A program made the position numbers and the translations under genes. Below are positions 9,885-18,433 of a stretch of 64,000 nt of DNA, piece after piece; positions within the stretch are counted from its first letter, which is position 1, and every line of letters begins with the position of its first letter. Below the pieces are notes generated by a model. The model ran no database searches. It saw nothing but the letters and a program-made list of their open reading frames with translations, and was not told the origin of the DNA. The DNA is from Alphaproteobacteria bacterium (GTDB taxonomy: Bacteria > Pseudomonadota > Alphaproteobacteria > Rhizobiales > Rhizobiaceae), in the NCBI GenBank assembly GCA_024742485.1, contig JANSYK010000001.1:2294001-2358000 (forward strand), given 5' to 3'.

Positions 9885-10703
9885 TCACGGCACCCGAAGC
9901 TTTGCCCCTGTCTCCTCTCCCAGTCCCATGCGCTCGGAAATGAGCTTGGCGGTTGCCATGAGCTGCTCTCTGACCTCATCCATCGGTGTGTTATCGCTTA
10001 GCAGCGTGAGGTACGGCACGGCGATCGCGGCAATCGCATTGCCCTGCAGATCAAGAACCGGACAGCAGACATCCTTCATGCCGTCAACCCGATCACTATC
10101 GGTCAGTTCGAAACCATTGCGCCGGATCACCCGAAGTCGTTCATCCAGATCCTGGCGATCGGCATCCGACAGATTGGGATTGGCCGCCATGATCCAGTGA
10201 TCCGCCAGTTTTCGCTCCTGAAAGGCAAGAAGAACGCGTCCGGACGCGGTGCCCAGCAGACTGAAGTCGCCGGTCACCCGCACCGATATCATGACCGGCA
10301 GCGGACTGTCGGCCTGCGCAGCGCAGTAAAGGCGACCCGAACTGTAGATGCCGAGATGACAAGACTGATTGACCTGTTCGGCCAGATTGCGCATTTCCGG
10401 CAACGCCACTTCGAGCAGTCGTTTCGAAGGCGGCCAGTTATGCGCCAGATTGTGCAACCGCATGGTCAGGGAGAAACCGCCGTCGCTGTCGTTACGATGG
10501 ATGTAGCCGCGCTCTTCCAGACAGGTCAGCATACGAAACACTTCACTGGCCGACCGGCCCAGTTCGGACGCGATTTTCCGCTGTGAAACAGGTTTGGTCC
10601 TGGTCGCCAGCAATTCCAGAATATCGAGCCCTTTTTCCAGGGCGGGCGCGCTGTATTTCTTGGCGTCATCGCCTTTGGTCTTGCGGGCCGACCGGACGTT
10701 CAT
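9885..10703 (-). CDS. IclR family transcriptional regulator
   Basis: A 272-residue IclR regulator. The N-terminal winged helix-turn-helix spans about residues 20-80 (EKGLDILELLA, KIASELGRSASEVFRMLTCL, RGYIHR), and the rest is the IclR effector-binding domain (SCHLGIYSSG, GTASGRVLLAF, VCCPVLDLQGNAIAAIAVPY). It is the last gene on the minus strand of the ABC/amidohydrolase island and begins 33 nt after the amidohydrolase stop, so it is likely cotranscribed with or directly controls that island. The effector is unknown; IclR regulators here usually respond to the pathway substrate. Confidence 0.92.
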   Translation of the reverse strand: MNVRSARKTKGDDAKKYSAPALEKGLDILELLATRTKPVSQRKIASELGRSASEVFRMLTCLEERGYIHRNDSDGGFSLTMRLHNLAHNWPPSKRLLEVALPEMRNLAEQVNQSCHLGIYSSGRLYCAAQADSPLPVMISVRVTGDFSLLGTASGRVLLAFQERKLADHWIMAANPNLSDADRQDLDERLRVIRRNGFELTDSDRVDGMKDVCCPVLDLQGNAIAAIAVPYLTLLSDNTPMDEVREQLMATAKLISERMGLGEETGAKLRVP

Positions 10704-10735: not shown

Positions 10736-11659
10736 CTATACGGGCAAGCGATAGATGTTGACAGCATTTTCAGCAAACATCGCGTCGCGCTCATTCTGGC
10801 TGAATCCCCTGGTGATCGACAAAAAGGCCGACCAGACCGCATCCATCGAGCTGAACATGGAATCGGTCGGAAAATTCGACGCAAAACAGACCCTGTCGGT
10901 CCCGAAGATATCGATCGTGTCGAGGACATAGGGCCTGATCAGGTCTTCGGTCCAATCCTCGATCGTATTCCCGTGGCCGGAAATCTTGGCAAAGACATTG
11001 TCCTCATCGGCAAGGATTCGCAAACCCGAACGCCAATATTCACGCCCCTCCGGCGAGTGATCGTGGGGCATGCCGGTATGTTCCAGAATGATCTTCGTTT
11101 CCGGGTGCTTGCGCGCCAGCTTTGCCGCACGCTCCATGTGGTTCGAAAAACACATCAGGTCAAAATCCAGACCATATTTCTTCAGCAGGCCGAATTTTTC
11201 GATCCAGGCGGCATTTTCCATGAAATCTTCTTCCGCCCAGCACAAGGCGGGGTTGTCGGGCAGGTGGTTGAGCATGTGGCGAATGCCGCGCGTGTTGGCA
11301 TGGGCTGCATGGCCTTCCAGCACAGCCTCGACATTGTCATCGGCGAAATTGGCAAAACCGACAATGCCCAGCGGCCGTCCGCCGAGGGCGTTGCTGTCGA
11401 CGAGATTTTGCAGCCAACGTGTTTCGCCAACCGGGTCGGAGGGATCCCACTCGGCCTGAATATGAACAAAACCCTCGATTTCGTAGCCCTGCGCATCCTC
11501 CAGATAATGATCGTAGAGATAGGTTCTGGACAGAGAGTCCGTGCCTGAAAGACCGCCCTCTTCCGCCTTCTGATCGGTTAGCCAGGGATAATAATTGTTC
11601 TCCAGATCCCACCAGTGAATGTGGGCATCGATGATTTTCTGGTCCGATTTTGTTCCCAT
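10736..11659 (-). CDS. Amidohydrolase (COG3618-type lactonase-like)
   Basis: A 307-residue metal-dependent hydrolase of the amidohydrolase superfamily. DAHIHWWDLENNYYPWL near the N-terminus is the typical start of the COG3618 group, which contains L-fuconolactonase, L-rhamnonolactonase and 2-pyrone-4,6-dicarboxylate lactonase. Further motifs: EGFVHIQAEWD, RGIRHML, ILEHTGMPHD (metal/proton-relay histidine) and CFASNFPTD near the end. ATG 11659 (MGTKSDQK) is chosen because GGAGAC precedes it. It lies 10 nt after the permease stop and so in the transporter operon. Function as a sugar-lactone hydrolase is inferred from the family and the sugar-type transporter; the substrate is unknown. Confidence 0.82.
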   Translation of the reverse strand: MGTKSDQKIIDAHIHWWDLENNYYPWLTDQKAEEGGLSGTDSLSRTYLYDHYLEDAQGYEIEGFVHIQAEWDPSDPVGETRWLQNLVDSNALGGRPLGIVGFANFADDNVEAVLEGHAAHANTRGIRHMLNHLPDNPALCWAEEDFMENAAWIEKFGLLKKYGLDFDLMCFSNHMERAAKLARKHPETKIILEHTGMPHDHSPEGREYWRSGLRILADEDNVFAKISGHGNTIEDWTEDLIRPYVLDTIDIFGTDRVCFASNFPTDSMFSSMDAVWSAFLSITRGFSQNERDAMFAENAVNIYRLPV

Positions 11660-11669
11660 GATCCGTCTC

Positions 11670-12623
11670 CTAAATCTCGGCGCGCAGATGCGCCTGTCGC
11701 CCGTACACGGCCACCACAGCGACAATCAAGGCCCCCAGCGCCGCCTGAACGATCGACTGATCGAGACCGAAACCGATCAGCAAGGTATTGAGTTGTGTCA
11801 GCGCCAGTGCACCGGCTACCGTGCCCAAAATGCCGCCTCGACCACCTGAAAGCGCGGTGCCGCCAATGACAGCCGCCGCCACCGTCTGAAACAGATAGGG
11901 CCGGCCTGCATCGGCAAATGCCGCACCCGAGAAGCCCAACAGCAAGATCCCGGTGAGCGCTGCCAAAAGAGACGACACGGAAAAACAGAAAATCCAGATC
12001 TGCAGTGGTTTGGCCAGAATATAGGGAGCGGCTGTGGGGTTGCTGCCGAGCGCAAAAATCTGCCGGCCCAGCACCGTGCGGTTCTCGAACAGGATGAGGA
12101 AAGCCACCAGGGCAAGGGTAGCCGGGACAAGCCAGGGGGTCGGAATGGGCCCGATCGACTGTCCGATCGAAACGAAATTGTTGATATAGTCCGGCGCGCT
12201 CCCCGAGGGATATCCGCTGGTCCACAGCAACACGGCGCCCAGCAGCGCGGTACCCGTACCCAGCGTGATGATCAGCGGGTGTACCCGCAGGATCGATGAC
12301 AGGCCGCCATTGATCGCGCCGAACACAAGGCTGAGCAGTACCACCACGATCATCGCCTGCCAGAACGGCATGCCGTCTGCCGAAAGCTGCGCAACGGTCA
12401 CATTGGCAAATCCGATAACAAACGGCAGTGAAAGATCGATACCACCAATCAGCATGACAAGGGTCTGCCCGGCTGATGCGATGATGAGAAAGGATGCCAG
12501 GACCAGCATTGCCCGGATCGAAAACACGCTCGTATAACCATTGATTGTCAGGGCGCCTATCACGAAGATGATGGCAACCATCGCAAAGGCCGGGAGCGAT
12601 TTGCTTTGGAGAAGGTCACGCAT
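11670..12623 (-). CDS. RbsC-type ABC transporter permease (second permease)
   Basis: A 317-residue, strongly hydrophobic protein of the branched-chain/ribose-type permease family (BPD_transp_2), with about eight to ten membrane segments and the cytoplasmic-loop text IGGIDLSLPFVIGF and FALGSNPTAAPYILAKPLQI. The region GGTALSGGRGGILGTVAGA is the conserved ATPase-contact loop. Its start overlaps the upstream permease stop by 8 nt, so the two permeases are translationally coupled and probably form a heterodimer in the membrane. Confidence 0.88.
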   Translation of the reverse strand: MRDLLQSKSLPAFAMVAIIFVIGALTINGYTSVFSIRAMLVLASFLIIASAGQTLVMLIGGIDLSLPFVIGFANVTVAQLSADGMPFWQAMIVVVLLSLVFGAINGGLSSILRVHPLIITLGTGTALLGAVLLWTSGYPSGSAPDYINNFVSIGQSIGPIPTPWLVPATLALVAFLILFENRTVLGRQIFALGSNPTAAPYILAKPLQIWIFCFSVSSLLAALTGILLLGFSGAAFADAGRPYLFQTVAAAVIGGTALSGGRGGILGTVAGALALTQLNTLLIGFGLDQSIVQAALGALIVAVVAVYGRQAHLRAEI

Positions 12624-13575
12624 TGGCGTCTCTTTTCCTCAAACGAAAATAGTCTGAAATCCGGTCCGAATTGAGCGACACCGCGATCACCAGAACAAGG
12701 CCGTAAGTGATCTGCAGGAAGAAGGATGACACGTTGAAATGCGTGATCAGGTTCTGCAGCAGGAAAATGTCGATGGCGCCCAGCGTCGCACCGGCCATAC
12801 CGCCCTTGCCTCCAGCCAGACTGACCCCGCCCAGCGCCGCCGCGGCGATCGCCAGCAACGTATAGTTCGGCCCGACCTGCGCATCGGCCGAGCCCAACAG
12901 GGCCGTCAGGGAAATGGCCGCAACGGCCGCAATGAAGCCGGCGATGATGTAGGCCAGAAAGCGCACCAGTTCGACATTGATGCCGGCGGAATAGGCGGCC
13001 CGGTCATCGCCGCCGATGGTCACGATCAGGCCGTGCAACGGCGTCCGTTTGATCATCAGCCAGACCGCCGCAACGCCGAGAAGCGGGAGGATAGAAAGGT
13101 TTTCCGACAGCATGTTCAGCCATTTGGGGGTCGGGCCGATCGGCGACGGCAGGATCCAAGTCGCAAGGCCCGCCAGCACAAGGTAGGATCCCAAGGTCGC
13201 GACAATCGGCTGAATGCGCAGATAGACAGCCAGAAATCCATTGATCGCGCCAATGGCGACACCGATCACAAGCGCCGCCGGGATGATGACCAGCGGACTT
13301 TCAAAGCCCAGATCCAGAATCAGGGTCTTGACCAAAATGACATTGATGAATCCGATCAGCGGCCCGACAGACAGGTCGATCCCCTCGCGACCGGCCAGAA
13401 TCACCGGTGTCGCCGCACAGGCCGCCAGAACGAGCGGGACGATCAACCCGAGCGTAATGCCGATATTGGCAGGCGAAAACCGGCCCGGCGTGATCAGGAC
13501 CGTTGCAATGATCAGCACGACGAACAGAAAGGTGGCGAAACGTGCGTCGGCGAGGCTGGCGGTCAATCTCCTCAT
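12616..13575 (-). CDS. RbsC-type ABC transporter permease (first permease)
   Basis: A 319-residue member of the same permease family. Visible motifs are GREGIDLSVGPLIGFINVIL, VTIGGDDRAAYSAGINVELV and GGVSLAGGKGGMAGATLGA. Start ATG 13575 (MRRLTASLADARF) places the first membrane segment about 12 residues in, as usual; the open frame continues to 13683 and upstream starts with an extra 36 residues cannot be excluded because no strong ribosome site marks either. There are 148 nt between this start and the upstream ATPase gene, the largest gap inside the transporter operon. Confidence 0.85.
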   Translation of the reverse strand: MRRLTASLADARFATFLFVVLIIATVLITPGRFSPANIGITLGLIVPLVLAACAATPVILAGREGIDLSVGPLIGFINVILVKTLILDLGFESPLVIIPAALVIGVAIGAINGFLAVYLRIQPIVATLGSYLVLAGLATWILPSPIGPTPKWLNMLSENLSILPLLGVAAVWLMIKRTPLHGLIVTIGGDDRAAYSAGINVELVRFLAYIIAGFIAAVAAISLTALLGSADAQVGPNYTLLAIAAAALGGVSLAGGKGGMAGATLGAIDIFLLQNLITHFNVSSFFLQITYGLVLVIAVSLNSDRISDYFRLRKRDANA

Positions 13576-13723
13576 GGGGCCATCCGGGCACAGACGCACG
13601 AAAACCTGACACGTTTCCTGCCGCAGGTGTGTTTGTCCGGACAGGCGGTTCCGTCTGTTGGGTGCCATACATCCGCCCAACACACACCGTGCCTGTCAAC
13701 GAGGGCCAATTTGGAGAACTCGA

Positions 13724-14494
13724 TCACTGTTGCGTTCCTTCGGCTGTGTCCAACTGGCCGAACATGGCCGCCATCACGCTGTCGAGGGTCATGTCCTTTC
13801 GATCGATACGGGCGGAAACTCCATTGTCCCTGAACACGATCACGCGATCACACAATTCGAGGATCTCTTCCAATTCGGTGGACAGAATCACCAGGGTCAC
13901 GCCCCGCTCGGTAACGGCCCGGCGAAGATACGCGTAGAGCGCCTTGCGGGTCTGAATGTCGACACCGCGTGTCGGGTCGTTCAACAGCATGACTCTGGGG
14001 TGTCGCGCCATGGATCGGGCCAGCAGCACCTTTTGCTGATTGCCGCCGGACAGGCGGTTGATGTGCATTCCGGTGGAGGCATAGGTCATCGACAATTCAT
14101 CGCGATAGACGTCGAGGGCCGATCGGGCCTTGCCCGGTTTGAGCCAACCGCCCTTGGAAAACCCGGCCAGATTGCCCAGCGTGAAATTGTCCAACACGCT
14201 CAAACCGGGAAAGATGCCATTGCGTTTGCGGTCGGCGGGCAGATAGCCCACCTTCGCCCGGGCCGCCGCCGACAGGGAAGTAATTTCCTGTGGTCCCCGG
14301 TCGGTATGCGCCAAGACACGACCGGCCACCGGTGCCCGTTTTCCGGCGAGAACTTCAAGGAACTGCGCCTGTCCATGCCCGTCCAATCCCGCCAGGCCCA
14401 CGATTTCCTGTTTTTTGACCTGTTCGGAAATAATCTCCGATCCGGGCGCGAGCTGCAGATCCTCTGCGCCGAGCACTGTCTGCATTTCAGACAT
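13724..14494 (-). CDS. ABC transporter ATPase, C-terminal half of a split RbsA-type protein
   Basis: A 256-residue ATPase corresponding to only the second half of an RbsA/MglA-type protein (normally about 500 residues with two ABC domains). The Walker A region is GLAGLDGHGQ, lacking the GKS/T as is common for the second domain. The signature LSGGNQQKV is intact. Walker B reads MLLNDPTRGVD, with Asn and Asp where Asp and Glu normally stand, so this half should not hydrolyse ATP by itself. It overlaps the N-terminal-half gene by 8 nt in another frame, so this is two genes and two proteins unless translation slips. Confidence 0.88.
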   Translation of the reverse strand: MSEMQTVLGAEDLQLAPGSEIISEQVKKQEIVGLAGLDGHGQAQFLEVLAGKRAPVAGRVLAHTDRGPQEITSLSAAARAKVGYLPADRKRNGIFPGLSVLDNFTLGNLAGFSKGGWLKPGKARSALDVYRDELSMTYASTGMHINRLSGGNQQKVLLARSMARHPRVMLLNDPTRGVDIQTRKALYAYLRRAVTERGVTLVILSTELEEILELCDRVIVFRDNGVSARIDRKDMTLDSVMAAMFGQLDTAEGTQQ

Positions 14495-15224
14495 CGAGAC
14501 CCTCCTGCGTCAGATGGGCAAGCAATGTCTGCGGATTGATATCATCGCCTGAAAGATTTGCCGTGTTCCGGCCATTGTGCATCACATAAACGACGTCCGA
14601 CAATTCGAGAATTTCCGGCATCCGGTGCGACACGAAAGCCACCGCGCCACCACCGGCGCTGAAGGTACGAATGGCCGAAAACAGCCGGTCACGATCAGCA
14701 AGATCGAGTGCGGCGGTTGCTTCATCAAGAATCAGCAGGCGCGGCTGACGTGCGAAACCACGGGCTATGACCACAATCTGCTGCTCATGCAGTTCCAGAT
14801 CGCCGGCAAGAGCGTCAAGGTCGACACGGCGGTCGGTCAGTCGAGACAGCTGTCCGTCCGCAAATTCCCGTTTTTCCGCCTGGCTTCGATGATGTCGAAA
14901 CAGGCCGTCATGCCCCAGCAGCACGTTGTCCATGACCGTGCGGTTGGGAACAATGAGGATTTCCTGCAGCACGATCGTAATGCCGAGCTTCAACATGCCG
15001 GCCGGGGTCCAGTTGGAAACCGACTTGCCGTCCAGGAAAACCTGGCCGCTGTCTGGCGGAATAATGCCCGCCAGAGCCTTGACCAGTGTGCTTTTGCCGG
15101 ACCCGTTTTCACCCAGGATCGTATAGACCTGTCCCGGCGATATCTCGATCGAAACCTCCTGCAAGGCTCGGGTTTCACCGAAACTCTTGGACAATTCATG
15201 TGTGGTCAGAAGCGGAGCAGTCAC
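14487..15224 (-). CDS. ABC transporter ATPase, N-terminal half of a split RbsA-type protein
   Basis: A 245-residue ATPase matching the first ABC domain of RbsA-type proteins. Walker A GENGSGKST is near residue 40, Walker B LLILDEATAALD and the H-loop VSHR are intact, but the signature reads LELHEQQ instead of LSxGQQQ. With the next gene (intact LSGGNQQ, broken Walker motifs) it could make one complete composite ATP site. GTG 15224 is chosen as start (VTAPLLTTHELSKSFG) because the open frame upstream runs through a terminator hairpin at 15280-15306. No strong ribosome site is visible. Confidence 0.85.
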   Translation of the reverse strand: MTAPLLTTHELSKSFGETRALQEVSIEISPGQVYTILGENGSGKSTLVKALAGIIPPDSGQVFLDGKSVSNWTPAGMLKLGITIVLQEILIVPNRTVMDNVLLGHDGLFRHHRSQAEKREFADGQLSRLTDRRVDLDALAGDLELHEQQIVVIARGFARQPRLLILDEATAALDLADRDRLFSAIRTFSAGGGAVAFVSHRMPEILELSDVVYVMHNGRNTANLSGDDINPQTLLAHLTQEGLDV

Positions 15225-15279: not shown

Positions 15280-15306
15280 AAAAAGAACGCCGGCAAGCCG
15301 GCGTTC
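15280..15306 (-). terminator. Rho-independent terminator after the sugar-binding protein gene
   Basis: On the minus strand GAACGCCGGC, two bases, GCCGGCGTTC, then five T. A perfect 10-bp stem with a T run, 24 nt past the stop of the binding-protein gene and upstream of the ATPase start. It would give high binding-protein expression with partial read-through into the importer genes, a familiar arrangement in ABC operons. Confidence 0.85.
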
Positions 15307-15330: not shown

Positions 15331-16512
15331 TTATTTGCACGCCTGAGGGATCTTGGAATAGTCCCAGCCGGGAGCCGGCTTGTCGCTGCCGAAATAGGCC
15401 TGCATGACTGCCGGCGGCACCGGATCGGTCGGCGACACCGGGAAGATCTCTGAGGAGTCCGGCTTCATGCAATCCGCATACCAGGCGTCGAAATCCGCCA
15501 TTTCAACCGACGGCACAGGGATCATGATGGTGCTCAGCACGGGGGCCTGACCATCCAGCACACGACTGGCCGTGCGAAACATGGATTGTCCGATCCAGCT
15601 CGGCAAAACCGCCCCGCCGGTGAATTTGAACTCATCCGGATTGGTTTTCCAATATCCGAGTGCATCTCCTGTCACGGATCCGGTGACAACGGGAAGCGGC
15701 CGACCGGCCTGCTTGAAAGCCTCTGCCACAACACGCGTTTCGGAACCGGTGGTCCAGACACCGTCAATCGGCGCAGGGTGTGTGGCAAGGGTCTGGAGAA
15801 TGACGGATTTCGTCACGCTTGGTGTCCAGTTGCCATTGACCATGCGGACAACCTTGATGCCGGGGTGTTTTTTGAAGGCTTCCTGGGCACCGGCCCGTTG
15901 CTGATCCACAATCGATACGCCGGCAATTCCCTCGACCATGACGACATTGCCCTTGCCATCAAGTGCTTTGGCAAGGTTGTCGGCCATGTTGTAACCCCAT
16001 TTGTAATAGTTGGAGTCAACATTGATGGCCTTTTCACTGCTCACCGCGGCCGCACCGGTTACCACCGGGATACCGGCATCGACGGCTGCTTCAATGGCGG
16101 CATTGAGACCAGTCCCGGATCCCGGAACGGTGGTGATGATGTCGCATTCCTTTTCGATGAAACTGCGAATATGCGAAATCTGGATACCGGCATCGCCATT
16201 GGAATCCGACATTTCGAAACTCGACACCACCCCCTCGTCCTGCAGTCCCTCGACAAGCCGCTTCAGTTCATTGGTCAGGGCTACACGCCATGGATTGCCC
16301 TGGTAGCTTTCCGAATGGCACCATTTCCATGGCCGCTCCGGCGCAGTGTAACCGTCAAGCGGCGATTTCGCGACAACAGTGTCAGAGTTCTCATACTCCC
16401 CCTGAAGGGCTTCCGGCAGCGTTTTCTTGGTCTCCTCGACCGTTGCCGCAGACGCCACTCCCAAGGACATCGCAACTGCCGAAACCGTAAGGGCTATGGT
16501 TGATAGTCTCAT
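15331..16512 (-). CDS. Sugar-type ABC transporter substrate-binding protein
   Basis: A 393-residue periplasmic binding protein of the type I (ribose/galactose-binding-like) fold. A signal peptide MRLSTIALTVSAVAMSLGVA ends near residue 22. Text such as GSGTGLNAAIEAAVDAGIPVV and GVWTTGSETRVVAEAFKQAG is typical of the fold. It is longer than classical RbsB (about 300), with additional segments near both ends and five cysteine residues or so, closer to the uncharacterised 380-400 residue group. ATG 16512 is chosen: GGAGG is 5 nt upstream, while the adjacent ATG 16515 is too close. The ligand cannot be told from sequence. Confidence 0.88.
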   Translation of the reverse strand: MRLSTIALTVSAVAMSLGVASAATVEETKKTLPEALQGEYENSDTVVAKSPLDGYTAPERPWKWCHSESYQGNPWRVALTNELKRLVEGLQDEGVVSSFEMSDSNGDAGIQISHIRSFIEKECDIITTVPGSGTGLNAAIEAAVDAGIPVVTGAAAVSSEKAINVDSNYYKWGYNMADNLAKALDGKGNVVMVEGIAGVSIVDQQRAGAQEAFKKHPGIKVVRMVNGNWTPSVTKSVILQTLATHPAPIDGVWTTGSETRVVAEAFKQAGRPLPVVTGSVTGDALGYWKTNPDEFKFTGGAVLPSWIGQSMFRTASRVLDGQAPVLSTIMIPVPSVEMADFDAWYADCMKPDSSEIFPVSPTDPVPPAVMQAYFGSDKPAPGWDYSKIPQACK

Positions 16513-16545
16513 CATTTCCTCCACTGATATCATTGACGTTCGTAA

Positions 16546-17001
16546 TCAGCTGCTGTCAGCAGCCTTCATTTGCACCAGGTAGATGTGCTCGCAGTACAGC
16601 ACCGTCGCACCTTCCTGGTTGACGACGGTCGTGCCCTCGATAACCCGGCCAAAATTCTCTCGTTTTTCGTCGGGGAATGCTTTGATGATTTCCACTTCGG
16701 TATGGATCGTGTCGCCAATAAACACCGGTTTGACGAAACGCAGCCGGTCGTAGCCAAGGCTGAAAGCCACCGGATTGATGACGGTTGCGGTCAGACCGAC
16801 ACCAATGGTGAATATCATCGTTCCGTGGGCAACCCTTTGCCCGAACTCCTGATCCGTGCACCATTCGGCATCCATGTGATGGGGAAAGAAATCACCACTG
16901 TGACCGGCATGAACAACAATGTCCGCCTCTGTGATGGTGCGTCCGAAGGTCTTGCGCTTTGCGCCTATTTCGTAATCTTCGAAATATTGTTCGATGATCA
17001 T
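16546..17001 (-). CDS. MaoC family dehydratase
   Basis: A 151-residue hot-dog hydratase. Early text [21 protein letters not shown] is typical of the MaoC group, with the catalytic region [20 protein letters not shown] (Asp/His at about 37-43) and [14 protein letters not shown]. It lies immediately upstream of the binding-protein gene on the minus strand, 33 nt away, and is the first gene of the island operon. With the divergent CoA-transferase it suggests that the imported compound is processed as a CoA thioester. Confidence 0.88.
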
Positions 17002-17251: not shown

Positions 17252-18433
17252 ATGAAAAACAAGCGCCCGCTGGAAGGACTTGTTGTCCTCGAATTCGCCC
17301 AGTTCCTTGCCGGACCGTTTTGCGGCCTTCGCCTCGCCGATCTTGGTGCCCGCGTGATCAAGATCGAACGCACCGGTGGCGGAGATCTCGGCCGCGGAAT
17401 CTATCTGAGCGAACCCGGTGAGAGTGGGGTCAACACGTTGTTTCAGGCCATCAACCGCAACAAGGAAAGTTTTGCCGCCAACCTGAAGAATCCCGCCGAC
17501 AAGCAGATCGTCAACCGACTGGTCGAAAAGGCGGATGTCGTCATTCAGAATTTTCGTCCGGGCGTCTTCGATCGGCTGGGCTTTTCCTATGAGGCTCTGG
17601 CCGCCACCAATCCCGGGATTGTGTATGCATCCGTGACCGGCTACGGGTCCAAAGGTCCCTGGGTAGGTCTTCCCGGGCAGGACTTGCTGGCTCAGGCGCG
17701 CTCTGGAATCATGTGGCTTAACGGCAGTAGCGGACATCCGCCGCAGCCAGTTGGCCTTGCCCTGGCCGATATGCTCGCCGGGCACAATCTGACCGAGGCG
17801 ATTTTGGCCGCGTTGGTCCAGCGCGGTGTCAGCGGCCACGGTGCAAAGGTCGATACCAGCCTTCTGGAAAGCCTGATGGACTTTCAGTTTGAAGTTCTGA
17901 CCACACATCTGAACGATGGCAGGCAGCAACCGGTTCGCTCAGCCGCTTATGGTGCACACAGCTATCTGCCAGCCCCCTATGGTGTCTATCCGACAGAGGA
18001 CGGATTTATCGCCATCGCCATGACGCCGGTCGATCATCTTATGGGTCTTCTGGAGATGGAGGCGCCGGAAAGATATTCTGACCCCGCGCTCGCCTTTTCG
18101 GACCGGGACGCGATCAATACGCGGATGGCGGAACGGTTCCGAGAGCGCTCGACACAGGCCTGGCTGGATGTTCTGCAACCGCATGATGTCTGGTGCGCGG
18201 AGATCCTCGATTGGGACAGCCTGCTCCAATCGGAAGGCTTCGAGGCGCTGGACATGCTCCAGACCCTCAACCTGCCGGACAATCAATCCGTTCAGACCAC
18301 ACGGGTACCCTTCCGGTTCCACGATGAAACACTGAAATCCGAGCGGCCGGCACCGGAAGTTGGTGAACACAACCGGCAGATCCGGGACGATTTCGGCCTG
18401 TGGACCGCCTCTGACTTACGCAGAACAACCTGA
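17252..18433 (+). CDS. CaiB/BaiF family III CoA-transferase
   Basis: A 393-residue family III CoA-transferase, which moves CoA between a donor thioester and a carboxylic acid through an Asp-bound anhydride. The N-terminal text GLVVLEFAQFLAGPFCGLRLADLGARVIKIE is a split of the family hallmark, FQAINRNKES follows near residue 70, and the catalytic Asp is in GLALADMLAG near residue 173. ATG 17252 is preceded by AGGAGC. It is divergent from the MaoC/ABC operon, sharing the intergenic region, which points to co-regulation. The acid substrate is not known. Confidence 0.9.
   Translation: MKNKRPLEGLVVLEFAQFLAGPFCGLRLADLGARVIKIERTGGGDLGRGIYLSEPGESGVNTLFQAINRNKESFAANLKNPADKQIVNRLVEKADVVIQNFRPGVFDRLGFSYEALAATNPGIVYASVTGYGSKGPWVGLPGQDLLAQARSGIMWLNGSSGHPPQPVGLALADMLAGHNLTEAILAALVQRGVSGHGAKVDTSLLESLMDFQFEVLTTHLNDGRQQPVRSAAYGAHSYLPAPYGVYPTEDGFIAIAMTPVDHLMGLLEMEAPERYSDPALAFSDRDAINTRMAERFRERSTQAWLDVLQPHDVWCAEILDWDSLLQSEGFEALDMLQTLNLPDNQSVQTTRVPFRFHDETLKSERPAPEVGEHNRQIRDDFGLWTASDLRRTT

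Follow-up and report, generated by a model that had tools for sequence, protein, structure and literature searches.

ABC ATPases join two nucleotide-binding domains (NBDs) at each ATP site: Walker A, Walker B and H-loop come from one NBD and the signature from the other. In the stretch of DNA analysed here, 64,000 nucleotides of a Rhizobiaceae contig and referred to below as the window, what would ordinarily be one RbsA-type ATPase gene appears as two overlapping genes, each lacking motifs that the other keeps. Is the division genuine, how widely is it shared, and did the motifs disappear before or after it? The elements concerned are these:

14487..15224, minus strand: N-half, the putative catalytic NBD, with a presumed GTG start; Walker A, Q-loop, Walker B Glu and H-loop His intact
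13724..14494, minus strand: C-half, a putative pseudo-ATPase NBD that keeps LSGGNQQ, has ND in Walker B and lacks both the P-loop Lys and the H-loop His
14487..14494, minus strand: the 8 nt ATGTCTGA shared by the start of the C-half and the stop of the N-half, from the ORF listing and junction comparison

Both open reading frames were seen, which upholds the claim of the sequence-only reading that two genes overlapping by 8 nt in different frames replace one ATPase; instead of the tandem ABC domains in a single chain typical of the RbsA type there are two ORFs. The motifs were also as that reading gave them: GENGSGKST, LILDEAT and FVSHRM are intact in the N-half, with LELHEQQ in signature position, and the C-half has GLDGHGQAQ (without the P-loop Lys, hence no GKS/T), LSGGNQQ and MLLNDP. 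One loss was absent from its list: a Thr (ILSTEL) occupies the H-loop His position of the C-half.

The C-half ORF starts with ATG and encodes 256 aa. The N-half stop codon ends at 14487 and its likeliest start is the GTG at 15224 (245 aa), taken because most relatives start there; the frame is also open to an alternative TTG at 15296. AGGAGG lies a few bases 5' of the C-half ATG, and the C-half frame is closed five codons 5' of it. All 31 split loci compared (L008, an apparent duplicate of L026, was excluded from overlap counts and trees) have an overlapping C-half start: by 8 nt in 20, 11 nt in seven and 4 nt in four, when ATG or GTG is preferred to an upstream TTG in L002, L026 and L108. A Shine-Dalgarno-like match of at least 4 bases is present in 26 of the 31, and no such match was found in L007, L012, L013, L017 and L114; L012 and L013 combine this with a 4-nt GTG overlap, which counts against our best reading. 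The nearest relative, L189, has the same 8-nt overlap. Compared with it, dN is far below dS in the N-half (~0.116 and ~1.07; 245 codons) and in the C-half (~0.098 and ~1.10; 252 codons), so both are under purifying selection. In two closed replicons the split is annotated as two CDS.

A sequencing or assembly frameshift at 14487-14494 in an ordinary fused gene, for which one could cite fused RbsA being the rule elsewhere (a canonical RbsA C-domain matched in 71 of 249 phylum genomes, all frames being at least 501 aa among the matches listed), is vanishingly unlikely in the face of 31 independent split loci with three overlap lengths, two frame relations and starts in place, Shine-Dalgarno-like matches at most of them, the shared overlap and substitution pattern of L189, and the two closed replicons. 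Nor does a programmed ribosomal frameshift, joining both frames into one chain, fit the junctions. Slippage is possible in principle wherever frames overlap, but the halves stand in one frame relation in 27 of the 31 loci and in the other in four; a single direction of slip cannot serve both, which argues against it. With the closed frame upstream of the window's C-half ATG and dedicated start codons in 31/31 loci, we consider it extremely improbable. The 8-nt overlap probably serves instead to couple translation and hold the halves stoichiometric.

Related genomes were searched for the same split, which proved to be conserved with the same residues. Among 151 genomes from the same family as the window, C-half matches at E ≤ 1e-40 came from 22; for 17 of those, the genome of the window being one, the best place was a split pair beside the same substrate-binding protein (SBP) and two permeases. 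Twelve matches at E ≤ 1e-75 among 297 genomes of the order comprised 11 split loci and one fused (L117); at class level (337 genomes, E ≤ 1e-68) there were two, the window's genome and one fused (L118); and the six found among 349 genomes of the phylum were all within the window's family. The split is thus seen in one order only in these samples; within the genus it occurs in three of eight genomes. Carriers include Pararhizobium qamdonense, Sinorhizobium mexicanum, Sinorhizobium sp. RAC02, Rhizobium jaguaris, Mesorhizobium sp. B2-1-8 and Mesorhizobium sp. LHD-90. P. qamdonense and Mesorhizobium sp. B2-1-8 each have two annotated ATP-binding CDS; in three other carrier records the plasmid gene table is incomplete and the locus has no listed features. 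A peptide scan of genome contigs, dominated by the common peptide LSGGNQQK, gave among the matches listed 79 usable loci from many phyla, 78 fused and one split (L026). Rows L106, L113 and L119 were left out as repeats of L011, L001 and L005, as were L024 and L082, in neither of which an N-half was found, L082 being at the end of its contig. No account of this split was found in the literature searched, which took in few subscription papers.

That the halves belong to the RbsA family is indicated by their matches. Each contains one ABC_tran domain (Pfam), and against the full-length NCBIfam models for LsrA, xylose, RbsA, AraG and YtfR the N-half matches first halves and the C-half second halves, aligning for example to 5-237 of 510 (LsrA) and 281-504 of 513 (xylose), as expected of NBD1 and NBD2. 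Best scores, 180.1 bits for the N-half (curated cut-off 586) and 154.4 for the C-half (699), fall short of cut-offs that belong to full-length models and that a half protein could hardly attain. The partners are those of CUT2 systems, BPD_transp_2 permeases and a Peripla_BP_4 binding protein. AlphaFold2 predicts a full NBD for each half (N-half, pLDDT 91.4, pTM 0.88; C-half, 91.8 and 0.89), so the cut falls in the linker and neither domain is truncated. Foldseek ranks CbiO and LptB type NBDs first for the C-half model, which confirms the fold and nothing further. Sequence searches of the PDB (52 and 36 sequences at the cut-offs) returned general ABC ATPases only and no RbsA-named chain; the pair would therefore also be a useful structural target. 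The window's own genome is very rich in ABC ATPases, with at least 150 PF00005 matches (150 scored of 346 candidates). The idea that the N-half derives from a half-size paralogue was considered and rejected: the 14 of its next-best matches in the genome that were taken up as loci are open frames of 496-598 aa at ~32-38% identity, so that none of those compared indicates a closer half-size source.

To place the motif losses we compared split and fused proteins. In 32 split rows (L008 included here) the N-half has Walker A GK[S/T], Walker B DE and H-loop His in 32/32 and LSGG in 0/32, while the C-half has LSGGNQQ in 32/32 and neither GK[S/T] nor Walker B DE in any; its Walker B reads ND in 30, DD in one and NN in one. 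Half 1 of 116 fused RbsA-type rows is the same, with Walker A, Walker B DE and His in all and LSGG in none, and GK[S/T] appears in half 2 of two (three rows have no letters there). Since 78 of the 116 came from the scan keyed to LSGGNQQK or NDPTRGVD, C signature counts in the fused set are by construction. Half-2 Walker B is DE in 75, ND in 26 and otherwise in 15, with ND enriched by the 29 rows from a search with L117; ND is found in the nearest fused relatives too. Neither the missing half-1 signature nor the missing half-2 P-loop Lys is thus peculiar to the split: both are near universal in the fused rows and characterise the RbsA family, in agreement with what has been published on RbsA and NupO of Bacillus subtilis (PMC11466899), and the split pair shares them. 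The sequence-only reading had credited known RbsA proteins with a milder asymmetry, for which this comparison gives no support. The counter-evidence that it named, fused relatives with canonical motifs throughout, did not turn up: fused relatives of the pair do exist, but each of the 116 departs from the canonical motifs in at least one half. Two fused groups lack the half-2 Walker B Glu through other residues: L029, L037, L103 and L105 (DNPT), and L047, L055, L058 and L060 (DDPM).

Phylogeny gives the order of events. Split rows form one clade in a quick tree (83 rows, of which 31 are split; support 97) and in a careful tree of 72 rows (27 split; a further 11 rows having been removed), with support of 100/98 and 100% agreement among 200 bootstrap trees; they also form one clade each in N-only and C-only trees (SH-aLRT 91 and 93). 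In whole and single-half trees alike the pair nests among fused proteins. The careful tree, in which the outgroup does not fall on one side of a single branch, counts one change for the split state and two for the half-2 Walker B Glu. A 46-row clade around the split rows is completed by L117, L127 and 17 NDPA-type proteins, each of them a fused protein without the half-2 Glu, and the next clade out is fused with ND or DD. As sister to the split clade the tree offers an open fork that joins it with L117, L127 and the clade of fused NDPA proteins; L117 and L127 are long branches. N and C distances correlate at r = 0.93 (351 pairs), although any two genes of the same genomes correlate somewhat.

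The sequence-only reading had the losses fixed after gene fission, an order of events that would mean specialisation of two free subunits. The prevalence of ND in the C-half Walker B, 30 of 32 split rows against 26 of 116 fused, leans that way, but the signature and P-loop losses are already there in fused rows, and on the tree the half-2 Walker B change predates the split, every fused row of the 46-row clade and of the next clade out being without the Glu; this order of events is very improbable, and the split as cause of motif loss was rejected on the same two grounds, fused rows and tree placement. A reverse history, with the split ancestral in the lineage and the halves fused later in L117, L127 and the NDPA proteins, is very unlikely too. 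One change on the tree does not by itself say which state came first, and the open sister fork leaves room for this history; against it stand the 78 fused loci to one split in the peptide scan and the confinement of split forms to one order in the genomes sampled. We favour fission over later fusion because the rooting uses fused proteins and fused RbsA is the general rule. On the best rooting, then, the sequences place a single fission at the linker of an ATPase that already had one site; the one-site state predates the split, since the split clade sits among fused proteins already without the half-2 Glu.

How would such a pair work? N with N would lack a signature, and C with C a P-loop and catalytic residues, so only N with C makes one complete site; the obligate heterodimer with one hydrolytic site proposed earlier is the natural reading by this logic. 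It would have a consensus composite site and a second without catalytic Glu, as in other pairs with one degenerate site. We put at roughly 0.8 the probability that the locus encodes a CUT2 (RbsA-like) importer ATPase with its NBDs as two proteins, of which the N-half would be catalytic and the C-half would donate LSGGNQQ. The halves would pair 1:1 beneath two permeases, the N-half binding and hydrolysing ATP and the C-half supplying the signature that closes on it. The mirror site would not hydrolyse: it is without Lys, Glu, His and signature, and hydrolysis there is therefore not expected. Two different permeases would allow a fully asymmetric importer. A bolder reading, which we consider unlikely, is that of a natural un-fusing in which an ATPase already irreversibly one-sited freed its dead half as a separate pseudo-ATPase, able now to evolve or be dosed as an independent regulator of transport instead of only donating the signature.

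The surrounding genes are:

12616..13683, minus strand: permease 1 (BPD_transp_2), kept in 20/20 split loci
11670..12623, minus strand: permease 2 (BPD_transp_2), different from permease 1 (Pfam, locus comparison)
15331..16533, minus strand: periplasmic substrate-binding protein (Peripla_BP_4; Pfam, locus comparison)
10736..11725, minus strand: Amidohydro_2 protein, weakly L-fuconolactonase-like, a probable pathway gene; homologue near 10/20 split loci
9885..10703, minus strand: IclR-family regulator; homologue near 15/20 split loci
16546..17001, minus strand: MaoC-like dehydratase, a probable pathway gene; homologue near 10/20 split loci
17252..18433, plus strand: family III CoA-transferase (CaiB type), divergent, a probable pathway gene; homologue near 16/20 split loci

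The order SBP-N-C-permease1-permease2 holds in all 20 split loci examined. The neighbours, a CoA-transferase, a MaoC-like protein, an Amidohydro_2 protein and an IclR regulator, hint at an organic acid, a sugar acid or a lactone as substrate rather than plain ribose; a link to CoA-activated acids or lactones is probable. Homologues of these four were found near 0/4 fused relatives at E ≤ 1e-10, flanks being unequal in length. The permease genes overlap by 8 nt as well (window 12616-12623), which would give the operon a second coupled junction. Elsewhere, the SBP gene of the split operon in Mesorhizobium sp. B2-1-8 (L121:5393-6192) matches as two fragments that lie in different frames and that the annotation gives as separate short CDS, so this copy may be broken; an SBP-like ORF directly adjoins the CoA-transferase at L155:14096-15241, without an obvious signal peptide by eye, and at L168:6492-7898, where it matches SBP_bac_8. 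In the fused relative L127 (L170:7346-12135) the genes run SBP-permease-ATPase-permease, an order that differs from that of the split operons.

The split is real and conserved, yet it is a variant of a family whose asymmetry has already been published. With the RbsA/CUT2 ATPases (RbsA, XylG, LsrA, AraG and YtfR models) the pair shares half-to-half matches, operon type and the asymmetry of half-1 signature and half-2 P-loop; they are one chain, whereas the pair is two, with half-2 Walker B ND and scores far under the equivalog cut-offs. FrcA-type CUT2 ATPases are single-domain proteins, presumed to form homodimers with intact motifs; the pair resembles them in having one domain per protein and would differ in the other respects. 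In heterodimeric ABC exporters such as TM287/288, BmrCD, MsRv1273c/72c and TAP, two different chains likewise form one consensus and one degenerate ATP site, but NBD and TMD are in one chain, while the split pair belongs to an importer with separate NBD proteins. Importers of the DppABCDF type also have five distinct subunits, two ATPases among them, but are of the peptide family (PMC12136057). A further parallel is found in RbsA and NupO of Bacillus subtilis, for which a 2024 analysis (PMC11466899) describes one degenerate site, as in the split pair, in fused single chains, with both Asp and Glu absent from the second Walker B of NupO; it identifies these as the sole two fused NBD proteins and as those with a degenerate site, and asks what purpose fusion serves. 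Fusion and degeneracy go together in that account, and the split pair breaks the association. Across the split clade the two traits are found apart, the degenerate site being retained although the halves are not covalently joined. This makes the pair a convenient experimental system, since the catalytic half and the signature half can each be expressed and mutated by itself and then mixed.
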